Assembly (NCBI GenBank): GCA_028687425.1 | Contig: JAQUAD010000008.1 | Location: 1 to 64,000, forward strand | DNA from: Sideroxydans sp. | Lineage (GTDB): Bacteria; Pseudomonadota; Gammaproteobacteria; Burkholderiales; Gallionellaceae | Length of the DNA stretch: 64,000 bases | Reading direction: 5' to 3' | Shown here: positions 46,624 through 52,430 of the stretch, piece after piece | Layout of the letters: every line of letters starts with the position of its first letter | Position numbering within the stretch: position 1 is the first letter of the stretch | Notes under the pieces: generated by a model | Told to the model about the DNA's origin: nothing | Databases searched by the model: none | The model's input: the letters and a program-made list of their open reading frames with translations, nothing else | Program-made: the position numbers and the translations under genes

Positions 46624-48096
46624 ATGACCGACTCGCTCAGCCTGACCCGCGCCGCAAGATTGATCGGCGTGACGCGCGCCGAACTGCAACGCAAGATCCA
46701 GCATGGCGAGATGATCGCGCACGATGGCATGGTGACCGTCGGCAACCTGCTCGCCTGCTACCCCGCGGCGCAACTGGAAGACACCGCCGAAACACAGCGC
46801 ATCGCACAGATCAAGGAACGCGCCTTCGGCAAACGCGTGTTCGAACGCGCCCTGCCGGAACCAGAGGTGCTGGCTGCGCGCATCACCGGGCTGGGCAAGC
46901 AACTGGCGAACAGTCAGGCGCAGGTGAATCGTTTCAAGGATTTGCTCGGCCGACTATGGGACAAACTGGACAACACACCGGATATATCGATGACAGAATT
47001 AAAGCAATGGCTGGCACAGGAAGTCGAATCAGCGACTGAACCCGGCTTCATCAATCCGCTGGCGGTGAAGGACAACCTGCTGCGCGTGATGAGTGCCCAG
47101 GTAACGATACTGCCCAGCAAACACGACTTCATGGTCGAAGGCCATGACTCGCTGCTGGAAGCCGCCATGCGTGCCGGCATCCCACTCAACTACGGCTGCA
47201 GCGGCGGCAACTGCGGACTGTGCAAGGCGAAGGTGATCTCCGGCGAAGTGCGCAAGACGCGCAACCACGACTACATCATCAGCGAGGCCGACAAGCAGGC
47301 AGGCTATGTCCTGCTGTGCAGCAACACCGCCGTCAGCGATGTGGTGATCGAAGCGCCGGTGGCGGATAGCGTGCAGGACATCCCCTTCCAGCAGATCGAA
47401 GCCCATGTCAAAGCGGCCGGTCACATCAACGACGATGTCCTGCTGCTGCATCTGCAGACGCCGCGTACCAAGCGGCTGCGCTTCCTCGCGGGACAGAATG
47501 TCACCCTGCGCCTGGCCGGATCGTTCAGCGCCGTGCTGCCCATCGCCAGCTGCCCCTGCGACGACCGCAACCTGCTGTTCCATCTGCAGCGCCAACCCGG
47601 CAACCTGTTCTCGGACTACGCTTTCGACAAACTCAAGACGCATGAAACGGTGGAAGTCGAAGGCCCGCAGGGAGAATTCATCCTGCACGAGAAATCCCCT
47701 CGTCCGCAGTATTTCTTCGCGTTCGATTGTGGCTTCGCCCCGATCAAGAGCCTGATCGAACACGCCATGTCGCTGGAAGTGGAGAACATCCGCCTGCACT
47801 GGATCGGTTCCGACAAACAGCATATCTATCTGCCCAACATCGCCCACGCCTGGGACGATGCGCTGGACAACTTCAGCTATCACGAGCATATCGCCGGCTT
47901 CGACCTGCGCACTCTGAGCGGCAAACGCGAGCAGGCCTTGCACGATCTCCTGCACGACATCCAGATCGCGGACGCGGACATGTTGCTGGGCGACATCTAC
48001 ATCGCCGGCCCGCAGGATGCGGTGGACACGGCGGAAAGTTTCTTCGCGGAATTTGGCTTACCCAAGACCCGCGTCTCCGTGTCTCGCGTAAAATGA
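46624..48096 (+). CDS. 2Fe-2S ferredoxin-FAD/NAD(P) reductase with an extra N-terminal domain
   Basis: A 490-residue electron-transfer protein. An N-terminal helical domain (1-140), whose start looks like a MerR-type helix-turn-helix (LTRAARLIGVTRAELQRKIQ), precedes a plant-type 2Fe-2S domain with Cys192, Cys197, Cys200 (GCSGGNCGLCKA) and Cys232, and a ferredoxin-NADP reductase-like flavin and nucleotide domain (about 255-490). It should pass electrons from NAD(P)H through FAD to the iron-sulfur centre. Substrate and the role of the N-terminal domain are unknown. Confidence 0.82.
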   Translation: MTDSLSLTRAARLIGVTRAELQRKIQHGEMIAHDGMVTVGNLLACYPAAQLEDTAETQRIAQIKERAFGKRVFERALPEPEVLAARITGLGKQLANSQAQVNRFKDLLGRLWDKLDNTPDISMTELKQWLAQEVESATEPGFINPLAVKDNLLRVMSAQVTILPSKHDFMVEGHDSLLEAAMRAGIPLNYGCSGGNCGLCKAKVISGEVRKTRNHDYIISEADKQAGYVLLCSNTAVSDVVIEAPVADSVQDIPFQQIEAHVKAAGHINDDVLLLHLQTPRTKRLRFLAGQNVTLRLAGSFSAVLPIASCPCDDRNLLFHLQRQPGNLFSDYAFDKLKTHETVEVEGPQGEFILHEKSPRPQYFFAFDCGFAPIKSLIEHAMSLEVENIRLHWIGSDKQHIYLPNIAHAWDDALDNFSYHEHIAGFDLRTLSGKREQALHDLLHDIQIADADMLLGDIYIAGPQDAVDTAESFFAEFGLPKTRVSVSRVK

Positions 48097-48142: not shown

Positions 48143-48562
48143 ATGGGTCTGGTTTCATGGCTGGTGTACGGCGTGCTGTGCATGCTCGCGGAGTTTCTCT
48201 ACGGCTCCATGTATCTGTTCGCGATCGGACTGGCATTCGCCTATCCCGCGCTCGCCGAATACAACGGTGCCAACATGAGCATGCAACTGGTAGCACTCGG
48301 CGCCGGTGCCATCGCCCATTCGCTGGTCGTGTTCTTCATCCGCAAAAGCCGTAAAGGCACAAGCGCCAAACCTGCCCGCCCGGAAGTCGGCGAACGCGTG
48401 GATGTGATCGAATGGCTGGACGAATGCAGCGCGCGCGTGACCTGCAAAGGCCGCGAATGGCAGGCGGACAAATTCGACAGCCGCATGCCCGACGCCATGC
48501 ACGGCACCATCCACTCCGTGCAAGGCAGCCGCCTCGTCATCACCACCGAACAAGCCGGCTGA
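48143..48562 (+). CDS. NfeD-like membrane protein
   Basis: A 139-residue protein with N-terminal membrane segments (about 5-35 and 45-65) and a C-terminal OB-fold domain (about 80-135; VGERVDVIEWLDECSARVTCKGREWQADK), the layout of short NfeD/YbbK proteins linked to SPFH proteins at membrane microdomains. No SPFH gene adjoins. The start follows ggaggtttca. A short GC-rich hairpin overlaps its stop region at 48553-48569. Confidence 0.75.
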   Translation: MGLVSWLVYGVLCMLAEFLYGSMYLFAIGLAFAYPALAEYNGANMSMQLVALGAGAIAHSLVVFFIRKSRKGTSAKPARPEVGERVDVIEWLDECSARVTCKGREWQADKFDSRMPDAMHGTIHSVQGSRLVITTEQAG

Positions 48563-48584: not shown

Positions 48585-50543
48585 ATGCACACACTTGAAG
48601 CCCTGCGCGCCGGCGAACTGGCCGGCGTCACCCGTCTCGACCTCGGTTGTGGCCTGCGCGAGTTCCCGCCGGAGATATTCGCGCTGGCCGATACGCTGGA
48701 GATCCTCAACCTGTCCGGCAATGCACTGAGCGAGCTGCCGGACGACCTGCCGCGTTTGCACAAACTGCGCATCATCTTCTGCTCGGACAATCTTTTCACG
48801 CATGTGCCGGAAGTGCTGGGACGCTGCCCCGAGCTGGAGATGATCGGCTTCAAGGCCAACCGCATCGAAACGCTTTCGCCCTCAGCGCTGCCGCCGAAAC
48901 TGCGCTGGCTCATCCTCACCGACAACCGCCTGCGCGAGCTGCCGCCGGAGCTGGGCCGCTGCACGCGCCTGCAAAAACTCATGCTGGCCGGAAACCAGTT
49001 GCAGCAGTTGCCGGACACGTTGGCCGCCTGCACCCGTCTGGAACTGCTGCGCATCGCCGCCAACCGTTTCGAGCAACTCCCGGCATGGCTGTTCGACATG
49101 CCGCGCCTGGCCTGGCTGGCCTGCTCCGGCAACCCATGCAGCGACATCAACGAAGTCGCCGCGCTCGAGCATCTGCACATCACGCCCGTACAGTGGCATC
49201 AACTGGAGCTGCATCACCAGCTGGGTGAAGGCGCTTCCGGCGTGATCTACCGTGCCCAGCATCAAGAACAGGATGCATCGGTCGCGGTGAAACTGTTCAA
49301 GGGCGCGGTCACCAGCGACGGCCTGCCGCGCAGCGAAAAAGCCGCCAGCATCGCCGCGGGTGCGCATCCGGGGCTGATCCCTGTCATCGGCAAGGTCAGC
49401 GAGCATCCCGAACAGACACCGGGGCTGGTGATGTCACTGATCGACCCGTCCTTCCGCAATCTGGCCAGCCCGCCCAGTCTCGCCTCCTGCACACGCGACA
49501 TCTATGCGAAGAAGCTGCGCTTCAGTCTGCCCGTTGCGCTCAACATCGCCTGCGGCATCGCCGCCGTGGCCGAGCATCTGCATGCGCAGGGCATCATGCA
49601 CGGCGACCTGTACGCGCATAACATGCTGTGGAACGACGCGGGCGACTGCTTGCTGGGCGACTTCGGCGCCGCCTCCTTCCTGCCGCCGGATGCGCAACAG
49701 GCCGCGGCCATGCAACGCATCGAAGTGCGCGCCTTCGCCTGCCTGCTGGAAGAATTGATCGCACGTTGCAAGACCACGCCGAACAGCACCGCGATGCTCG
49801 ATGCCCTGCGCACCCTGCAGCAACGCTGCGACAGCGAGCATGTGCACAGCCGCCCCTTGTTCGCCGAGATCCATCGGGAATTGGTCGCGCTTGTGCAGCG
49901 CATCCCGCAACAGCGAGCCGTACCGGGCAAGGAACAGATCGCGCTGATGGAACCCTACATCGGCCTGCCGCTGGATCGCATCCATCTGCTGGCCACGCCG
50001 GAAGCCTGTGCCGCCGCTGCGGCGGAGATCATGGCGGCAGGCGTGGTCGGCTTCGATACCGAATCCAAACCCACCTTCGCCGTCGGCGAAGTGAGCGACG
50101 GACCGCACGTGGTGCAGTTCGCCTTGCGCGACAAGGCTTATCTGTTCCAGACGCAACGCGCGGAAAGCCTGCCCTGGCTGATCGAATTGCTGCATTCTCA
50201 GCAATTGCTCAAGGTCGGCTTCGGCCTGCGTTCGGATAGCAAACACATCCAGTCCAGACTGGGCATCCGCCCCGGCGGGCTGGTCGACCTGAATCAGGTG
50301 TTCAGCAATGACGGATATCAGAAAGAGATGGGCGTGCGTAATGCCGTCGCGCTGATGTTCGGCAAGCGCTTCCTCAAATCGCGCAGCGTCACCACATCCA
50401 ACTGGGCGCAAGCCGAACTCTCCGCGCAGCAGATGCTGTACGCCGCGAACGACGCTTATGCCGCACTGAAAGTACTGGATGCCCTCGCCCTGCCGCTACA
50501 TCTGCTACCCGTCATGGTCCAGCCGGTGTCGGACAATGCCTAA
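48585..50543 (+). CDS. LRR-protein kinase-DEDDy exonuclease fusion
   Basis: A 652-residue single-chain protein of three modules. Residues 15-190 are about seven leucine-rich repeats. Residues 205-440 are a Ser/Thr-type kinase domain: P-loop GEGASGVIYRA (214), Lys236 in VAVKLFK, catalytic HGDLYAHN (339-346), and DFG (359-361). Residues 450-640 are a 3'-5' exonuclease of DEDDy type: Asp491 and Glu493 (FDTES), Asp551 (SDSKHI), Tyr619 and Asp623 (YAAND). All key residues are present in both enzymes. ATG at 48585 is preferred to an in-frame TTG before it. In other bacteria, as far as recalled, the LRR-kinase and the exonuclease are separate proteins. Confidence 0.85.
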   Translation: MHTLEALRAGELAGVTRLDLGCGLREFPPEIFALADTLEILNLSGNALSELPDDLPRLHKLRIIFCSDNLFTHVPEVLGRCPELEMIGFKANRIETLSPSALPPKLRWLILTDNRLRELPPELGRCTRLQKLMLAGNQLQQLPDTLAACTRLELLRIAANRFEQLPAWLFDMPRLAWLACSGNPCSDINEVAALEHLHITPVQWHQLELHHQLGEGASGVIYRAQHQEQDASVAVKLFKGAVTSDGLPRSEKAASIAAGAHPGLIPVIGKVSEHPEQTPGLVMSLIDPSFRNLASPPSLASCTRDIYAKKLRFSLPVALNIACGIAAVAEHLHAQGIMHGDLYAHNMLWNDAGDCLLGDFGAASFLPPDAQQAAAMQRIEVRAFACLLEELIARCKTTPNSTAMLDALRTLQQRCDSEHVHSRPLFAEIHRELVALVQRIPQQRAVPGKEQIALMEPYIGLPLDRIHLLATPEACAAAAAEIMAAGVVGFDTESKPTFAVGEVSDGPHVVQFALRDKAYLFQTQRAESLPWLIELLHSQQLLKVGFGLRSDSKHIQSRLGIRPGGLVDLNQVFSNDGYQKEMGVRNAVALMFGKRFLKSRSVTTSNWAQAELSAQQMLYAANDAYAALKVLDALALPLHLLPVMVQPVSDNA

Positions 50544-50819: not shown

Positions 50820-52430
50820 ATGAAATTGAACATGCCTGTAACCAACGTCGAGCGTCGTTTCAGTGAAGATGAGTACATCGTCTCCAAAACCAATTTGAAG
50901 GGGCAGATCACCTACATCAACCGCCCCTTCCTGGAGATCAGCGGTTTTACCGAACAAGAGCTGCTGGGCGCTTCGCACAATATCGTGCGCCATCCCGACA
51001 TGCCGCCCGAGGCCTACAAGGATCTGTGGCGCACCTTGCAAAGCGGCAAGGCCTGGCGCGGCATGGTGAAGAACCGCTGCAAGAACGGCGACTATTATTG
51101 GGTAGAGGCGAACGCCAACCCGATCTGGGAAAACGGCAAGATCACCGGCTACATGTCGCTGCGTACCAAACCCAGCACAGAGCAGGTCAGAGCCGCCGAA
51201 CAGATCTACAGCAAATTCCGTAACGGCACAGCCAAAGGGCTGACCATCAAGGAAGGTCAGGTGGTACCCGCCGGCTTGCGCGGAAAGCTTGCCGCACTGC
51301 GCGATCTGAATATCTCAGCACGCCTGTCTATCGCCTGCGCCTTAATCGGCACCATCATCCTTGCCGTGGGCGCTGATCACTTGATCGCGCTCGCCGGAGG
51401 CCCAAGCCATGATGAAAATGACAACATCCTCGGCGTGCTGGTCGCCACCGCGACGGCCTCAGTGGCATGGTTATGGTGGTTCCTGACCTACAAAGTATTG
51501 CGCCCCCTCAAGCAGGCTGTACAAGCCTGCCAGGTCATCGCTGCCGGCGACGTCAGATTGCTCAAGCCCGCCGATTTCAAGAACGAAGTCGGACAACTGA
51601 TGCACGGCATCAACACCATGGCGGGCAACATCGCCAGCATCGTCAGCGATGTGAGTTCCGCCGCCAACGAGCTGGCTTCCGCCTCGGAAGAGATCAACAG
51701 CACCGTACAGCACCTGAGCAACTCGGCCAGCAAGCAAGCTTCCAACGTGGAAGAGATCAGCGCCTCCATCGAAGAGATGAGCAGCGCCATCCAGAACAAC
51801 GCCGAGAACACCCGACAGACCGACGAGATCGCCACGCAGGCTGCCGCACAAGCGAGCGAAGGCAGCGAAGTGGTGAGCCAGACCGTGGCCGCGATGAAAC
51901 AGATCGCCGCCAGGATCAGCATCATCGACGACATCGCCTATCAGACCAACCTGCTGGCGCTGAACGCCGCGATCGAAGCCGCCCGCGCCGGTGCGGCAGG
52001 ACGCGGATTCGCCGTGGTCGCCAGCGAAGTGCGCGCACTGGCAGAACGCAGCCAGTTGGCGGCACAGGAGATCGGCGATGTCGCAGGCGGCAGCGTCGAG
52101 CTGGCAGAGCGTGCAGGCAAGCTGCTCGAGCAGATGGTGCCCGCGATCAACAAGACTTCCGAGCTGGTGCAGGAGATCTCGGAATCCAGTACCGAGCAAT
52201 ACAGCGGCGTGACGCAGATCAACACCGCGATGACGCAGATCAGCCAGAGCACCCAGAGCAATGCCGCAGGCAGCGAACAGCTGGCCGCCACCTCGCAGAC
52301 GCTGAACGGCCAGGCGGAACATCTGCAGCAACTGGTGGGATTCTTCAGGATGGGATCGGGCGCTGTCGCACCGGCAAGCAGCTCACTGCAAAGAAAACCT
52401 GCCTTGCGCAGCGAACCGGAGTTCGCCTGA
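50820..52430 (+). CDS. Aer-like methyl-accepting chemotaxis protein with PAS sensor
   Basis: A 536-residue chemoreceptor. A cytoplasmic N-terminal PAS domain (about 15-120; [26 protein letters not shown]) is typical of FAD-binding aerotaxis receptors. Two membrane helices (about 175-190 and 205-225), a HAMP segment and a signalling domain with the conserved hairpin tip ([20 protein letters not shown] and [17 protein letters not shown]) follow. Probably an aerotaxis or redox receptor. It is alone, divergent in surroundings from the thioredoxin-HEAT gene, and no che genes adjoin. Confidence 0.9.

Follow-up and report, generated by a model that had tools for sequence, protein, structure and literature searches.

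A leucine-rich-repeat kinase fused to a WRN-type exonuclease in a small clade of Gallionellaceae

A single gene in a 64,000-nucleotide stretch of a Sideroxydans genome (contig JAQUAD010000008.1, hereafter the window) joins leucine-rich repeats (LRRs), a protein kinase and a 3'-5' exonuclease in one chain. This fusion is real, narrowly distributed and intact in its parts (Table 1); it is a new combination of domains and not a new kind of system. Among the papers listed by literature searches, no title or abstract opening described such an architecture. We read it as a genuine fusion, most likely of single origin, of two enzymes that most likely serve one process, a reading that we consider evenly poised between right and wrong. 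Below, we set out the evidence for the fusion itself, and then weigh what may have brought and kept its halves together.

Table 1. Features of the fused gene and its upstream neighbours (window positions; residue numbers refer to the 652-residue protein).
Feature	Position	Strand	Basis
2Fe-2S ferredoxin/FAD oxidoreductase, upstream, syntenic	46624..48096	+	Pfam, gene-order comparison
Small NfeD-like membrane protein, 22 nt upstream of the fusion	48143..48562	+	Pfam NfeD only at E 0.13, below cut-off
Fused coding sequence, LRR - kinase - 3'-5' exonuclease, 652 aa	48585..50543	+	ORF reading, Pfam
Leucine-rich repeats, about seven to eight, residues 17-198	48633..49178	+	LRR_8; pLDDT mostly >90; entropy
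Hanks-type kinase domain, residues 205-438, non-RD (HGD), K236/E251/D341/N346/D359 intact, short activation segment	49197..49898	+	Pfam, alignment, AlphaFold2, Foldseek
Linker, about ten residues (439-448), low confidence in the full model; 429-455 is the variable stretch	49899..49928	+	AlphaFold2 models, dN/dS comparison
Fusion point, aligning with the ATGA overlap of split relatives plus one extra base; stop and exonuclease start both absent	49907..49911	+	Junction alignment
DEDDy 3'-5' exonuclease domain, WRN type (D491, E493, D551, Y619, D623)	49929..50504	+	Pfam, alignment, profile search, AlphaFold2, Foldseek

The frame runs uninterrupted from an ATG at 48585 to a stop at 50541-50543, confirming the original prediction of one 652-residue product. 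Matches above the curated Pfam cut-offs were obtained for LRR_8 (E 4e-21, three stretches), PK_Tyr_Ser-Thr (2.5e-14, residues 207-382), Pkinase (2.7e-13) and DNA_pol_A_exo1 (6.7e-15, residues 470-635), in line with the LRRs, kinase and DEDDy exonuclease that had been predicted for this chain. The linker had been put at about ten residues, and the structural models agree: their last kinase helix ends at residue 438 and their first exonuclease helix starts at about 449. A search of the window genome with the fused protein returned a single match, and neither half has a second copy there. Mapping where the fusion occurs, a point raised with the prediction, placed it in 3 of 158 genomes of the Gallionellaceae, a family of iron oxidisers, namely the window genome and two others of the same genus that carry it at full length, G032 (81% identity) and G009 (80%). 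No further kinase-exonuclease fusion was present among the matches listed in the family, order and other-family genome searches. Five candidates with long open reading frames at the exonuclease or kinase (G884, G816, G941, G1069 and G1111) were inspected and rejected, as none joins a kinase to an exonuclease; they are extended starts or long frames in GC-rich DNA, or a separate gene. A further candidate, G033, was rejected on its stops and a 75-nt gap between the two genes, although the search table gives one open-frame length for both. Separately, the exonuclease of G138 (L142, G138:C3) has an in-frame run-on of about 150 residues, 365 aa in total, possibly another fusion, with a downstream gene.

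The prediction took the halves to be separate proteins elsewhere, and stand-alone genes are indeed what nearly all the relatives listed contain. In G006, G016 and G018, the kinase gene ends and the exonuclease gene begins within a shared ATGA, while in G176, G072 and G122 the two genes lie about 13-20 kb apart; among the matches listed with both places, the remaining Gallionellaceae genomes also have them apart. An alignment of the junction in the three fusions and the three ATGA genomes revealed one extra base at the overlap in the fused genes (four relative to G016), and the stop and the old start codon are gone from all three. It had been foreseen that relatives might encode two genes and that a lost stop or an assembly error might explain the junction. 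The first part of this stands, since the junction fits loss of a stop through a one-base difference, but the second does not, as the change is kept in three diverged genomes and is no error.

Phylogenies of the two halves agree in part. In the kinase tree (55 rows, quick search), the seven genomes with adjacent or fused genes formed one clade (SH-aLRT 100), inside which the three fused genomes formed another (SH-aLRT 93, below the 95 mark). The exonuclease tree also recovered the seven as a clade (SH-aLRT 99); the window copy has a longer branch there and did not group with the other two fusions. Because of the kinase tree and the shared junction, a single fusion event is favoured, which the exonuclease tree alone does not do, and the fusion most likely arose once, in one Sideroxydans-like clade of Gallionellaceae. 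In the order that we infer, stand-alone genes for an LRR-kinase and a WRN-type DEDDy exonuclease would first have become neighbours, overlapping as ATGA, and a one-base length difference would then have removed the stop and the start and joined the frames. The small NfeD-like gene upstream of the fusion, probably in the same operon judging from the 22-nt gap, precedes the kinase in all seven adjacent or fused genomes, the window included. The same holds in Ferriphaselus R-1, whose kinase has no exonuclease beside it, which suggests that the exonuclease moved to the kinase locus.

The kinase part has the residues of a Hanks-type kinase (Lys, helix-C Glu, HxD, Asn and DFG), with K236, HGDLYAHN at 339-346 and DFG at 359-361. 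Once partial hits and identical rows had been removed, 113 distinct relatives were available for counting, and all of them share the P-loop glycines 214, 216 and 219 together with K236, E251, H339, G340, D341, N346, D359 and G361; F360 (112/113), L342 (109/113) and A344 (101/113) are near-invariant. The predicted catalytic residues of both enzymes were thus correctly placed and are intact, being conserved in these 113 kinase relatives and in 57 relatives of the exonuclease. AlphaFold2 modelled the LRR-kinase part with high confidence to about residue 444, and Foldseek found its kinase domain to resemble those of RIPK2, RIPK3 and EGFR/receptor kinases. Two features absent from the prediction bear on how the kinase may be controlled. 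Its catalytic motif, HGD, makes it a non-RD kinase, and in a sequence alignment made by eye only about 18 residues separate DFG from the helix-F acidic residue E380, with the APE-containing canonical activation segment missing. Measured against the canonical length, the kinase would therefore be without such a segment, which speaks for control by binding rather than through phosphorylation of an activation loop. Conservation also extends beyond the usual signature to two motifs, TSDG (243-246) and CTRD (302-305), each position of which is kept in 112 or 113 of the 113 relatives.

We also assessed how the LRR part varies among the 113 sequences, which come from two phyla. Positions on the concave face (35 positions of the seven LRR strands, in a register that we assigned) had an entropy of 0.37 bits, compared with 1.52 bits for the loops, a difference matched by none of 10,000 shuffles. 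The face is therefore unlike that of an arms-race receptor, whose ligand face should vary more than its loops, and its near-invariance suggests that the LRRs hold a conserved partner, or the kinase itself. Two known classes of LRR protein did not fit. The profile for XopAC-type LRR effectors (NF041381) gave 101.5 bits against a cut-off of 450 bits, with its best stretch at residues 32-160 in the LRR part. Between LRR and kinase there is no transmembrane segment of the kind found in plant-type LRR receptor kinases: the highest 19-residue Kyte-Doolittle mean for starts at 165-225 was 0.53, and only segments starting at 311 and 627, which coincide in part with predicted kinase and exonuclease helices, have means above 1.6.

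Within the exonuclease part, D491, E493, D551, Y619 and D623 are identical in 57 of 57 relatives (partial hits removed), so that the three Exo motifs of the DEDDy family PF01612 (D-E, D and Y-D) are complete in every one. Modelled alone, the domain reached a mean pLDDT of 93.7; the full-length model is unreliable over this part because only three alignment rows cover it. The nearest solved structure by Foldseek was WRN (2fbt, E 6.4e-14, 25% identity), followed by Nibbler and RNase D, and mouse WRN was the best match in a sequence profile search (E 8.3e-29). The predicted fold and the sequence thus both place the exonuclease closest to the WRN type. WRN carries a RecQ helicase. The fusion has the DEDDy exonuclease fold in common with the WRN exonuclease domain (PDB 2fbt, 2e6l) but joins it to an LRR-kinase, without that helicase; RNase D, NrnC and EXD2 belong to the same superfamily and are more distant than WRN. 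The RNase D profile TIGR01388 gave only 27 bits against a curated cut-off of 298.95. Replacement of RNase D by the WRN-type exonuclease was considered and rejected: among 61 genomes of families f1, f26 and f5, chosen as 32 without and 29 with the exonuclease, RNase D was seen in neither group (61 of 61). In a PF01612 scan (E up to 1e-8), the 32 negative genomes had one match, in a Pol I-sized frame, and the 29 positive genomes had the same match plus the WRN-type exonuclease, although control genomes in these scans do not indicate which protein gives a match. The same two matches appeared in four of the five genomes of another scan (G000, G032, G009, G006 and G016); in G009 the second consists of a weak fragment at the end of a contig.

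Between the three copies of the fusion, all parts are under purifying selection, with dN/dS of 0.07-0.13 for the LRRs, 0.10-0.13 for the kinase and 0.11-0.30 for the exonuclease, at a dS of about 0.5-1.0 in the domains. The 27-residue stretch round the linker had values of 0.19-0.40 and has the same length, with no indels, in all three fusions. The exonuclease is less constrained in pairs that include the window genome, where it evolves faster than in G032 and G009.

The LRR-kinase stands alone in Janthinobacterium, Herbaspirillum, Variovorax, Burkholderia and Stutzerimonas, and in Bacteroidota such as Hymenobacter. Records named "leucine-rich repeat-containing protein kinase family protein" (BEI72309.1, WP_089418300.1) match the whole LRR-kinase part, with the same catalytic motifs in aligned relatives; unlike the fusion, they end after the kinase and have no exonuclease. 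Their function is given only as protein phosphorylation, an inferred annotation, and the titles and abstract openings of the papers listed yielded neither studies on this bacterial LRR-kinase family nor a report of kinase or nuclease activity for these proteins. Fifteen records of a plasmid collection, on replicons of 0.28-4.9 Mb, encode relatives of the LRR-kinase, 12 with 48.5-63.2% identity over 97-100% of 430 aa and three with 44.5% over 92%. In a check for a mobile origin, a phage search returned three records for the kinase part, with LRR matches of 26-31%, and three partial records for the exonuclease, two of them named Acinetobacter phage (49% over 63%). LRR-kinases in Hymenobacter, Cytophagales and Chitinophagaceae (L091, L106, L107 and L108) have 50-62% identity, about as in other Proteobacteria; these Bacteroidota-labelled copies reflect either transfer between phyla or mis-binned contigs. 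In G1150:C41 and G1141:C1, the LRR-kinase seems broken, its two pieces lying in different frames, as would fit an accessory gene. The exonuclease is a stand-alone accessory gene as well. Small groups within f1 share its neighbours, and among its neighbour clusters (the 25 largest, from 44 exonuclease regions), nothing but the exonuclease itself and overlapping frames linked families.

The two genes are mostly unlinked, and in three of four families they co-occur more often than expected. Among the best 80 of 154 stretches encoding a kinase relative, the exonuclease lay within the flank in four, those of G006, G016, G018 and G033. In G913, from another family, the two genes share a strand at a distance of about 1 kb, with small opposite-strand frames between. 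An evenly drawn order-level sample of 399 genomes, which mixes families and was counted by hand, contained the kinase in 38, the exonuclease in 94 and both in 27 (Fisher p 6e-11); a class sample of 274 genomes besides the window genome contained four, three and two, respectively. Within families, where shared ancestry was not removed, both genes were found in 23 of 200 genomes of f26 (15.6 expected, p 0.0066) and in 21 of 43 genomes of f5 (12.8 expected), while the 3 of 150 in f21 (1.9 expected) were not significant. The corresponding figure for f1, a set that includes incomplete genomes and in which the second gene was taken to be the exonuclease where the matches listed lacked a second match, was 54 of 158 (40.6 expected). 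Ku, a DNA-repair gene present in 59 of 200 f26 genomes, served as a control and accompanied the kinase in 15 (11.8 expected, p 0.15) and the exonuclease in 26 (23.0 expected, p 0.21), so that the excess over this control is modest (odds ratio 2.6 vs 1.6); 17 genomes of f26 have the kinase only and 55 the exonuclease only. Kinase and exonuclease thus co-occur beyond expectation in three of four families, with a modest signal that may include kinship within families.

Given these results, the main rival to a shared process is a near-neutral operon fusion, in which a one-base indel joined adjacent but unrelated enzymes that both work independently, neither regulating the other. We lean against this explanation while regarding it as a serious possibility. 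It would account for the confinement of the fusion to one small clade, for a short linker between two intact active sites, and for separate genes in nearly all the relatives listed. The faster evolution of the window exonuclease and the many genomes with one gene only speak in the same direction, and both count against our preferred reading, as do the restriction of the fusion to three genomes, with adjacency in four more, and the failure of the fusions to group in the exonuclease tree. What near-neutrality explains less readily is that the joined frame and its indel-free linker have been kept over three genomes at the observed synonymous divergence, that three relatives couple the genes through ATGA, and that co-occurrence exceeds expectation in most of the families compared.

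All seven genomes with adjacent or fused genes largely share the gene order round the locus, except that G032, G009 and G006 lack the chemotaxis gene (50820-52430) at this place and that the G016 contig stops short. Most annotated neighbours have roles in metabolism or signalling, and no family was assigned to three (two of ten in one Pfam scan at 0.001, and a 139-aa protein). Among the best 80 kinase regions no neighbour is common to most. The widest, present in 15 regions, is a NIR_SIR (sulphite/nitrite reductase-like) gene at 1.0-3.4 kb downstream of the kinase gene; a DUF934 gene comes after it in 12 of these, with both families assigned by Pfam for L049 and L109. These 15 come from two distant families (two Gallionellaceae, L043 and L049, and 13 Pseudomonas/Stutzerimonas), while further neighbour clusters join sister genera.

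The original prediction saw in this domain order the logic of a defence or damage sensor, in which the LRRs would sense an invader or lesion, the kinase would switch and the exonuclease would degrade nucleic acid. Apart from that logic, the idea draws on kinase-domain matches, to PD-T4-6 and mad6 in PADLOC (E about 1e-16) and to a PHROG serine-threonine kinase (4.7e-11), and on one weak neighbour match. PD-T4-6 and MAD6 have a Hanks-type kinase domain in common with the fusion, but nothing in them matches its LRRs or exonuclease, and the MAD6 profile (NF047741) gave 42.9 bits, best at residues 205-287 in the kinase, against a cut-off of 460, a shortfall of a factor of ten. Of 13 neighbouring window proteins, a single one matched PADLOC (LeoC, E 1.6e-4, on the chemotaxis protein), and none of five candidate stretches in a viral-contig scan was confirmed as a relative. 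The conserved concave face of the LRRs also speaks against a sensor of this kind. Defence thus has little support, and we consider it improbable. Least credible of all is an assembly or sequencing artefact, by which an extra or missed base would have joined truly separate genes: four close relatives do have two genes and the overlap differs by one base, but three genomes have the joined frame without the old start codon, and assembly error is excluded because G032 and G009 carry the same fusion at such divergence, which in effect already refutes it.

We return to the preferred reading, that of two enzymes serving one process. Both probably act in one nucleic-acid pathway, and control of the nuclease by the kinase, through phosphorylation or through gating by LRR binding, is plausible as a guess. 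Since the kinase seems not to be gated by a loop of its own and some ten residues tether the exonuclease, the simplest mechanism would be a local one. The LRRs would dock either on a conserved partner in the cell or on the kinase of the same chain. The non-RD kinase would phosphorylate this partner, the exonuclease of its own chain, or both, and the exonuclease, being tethered, would trim 3' ends of DNA or RNA at the docking site, in 1:1 stoichiometry. More tentatively, and in our judgement rather unlikely to hold in full, the LRR-kinase and the WRN-type exonuclease may be halves of an undescribed kinase-nuclease module of Burkholderiales and relatives, encoded mostly by unlinked genes, in which the invariant LRR face anchors the kinase to a conserved partner and phosphorylation by this kinase gates the exonuclease.

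If the halves do act together, the fusion would serve as a Rosetta-stone link and provide the first functional lead for a widely spread family of bacterial LRR-kinases. It would also represent a bacterial WRN-type exonuclease under kinase control. The overlapping and the fused genes stand one base apart, and with both states alive in sister species they constitute a clean natural experiment.
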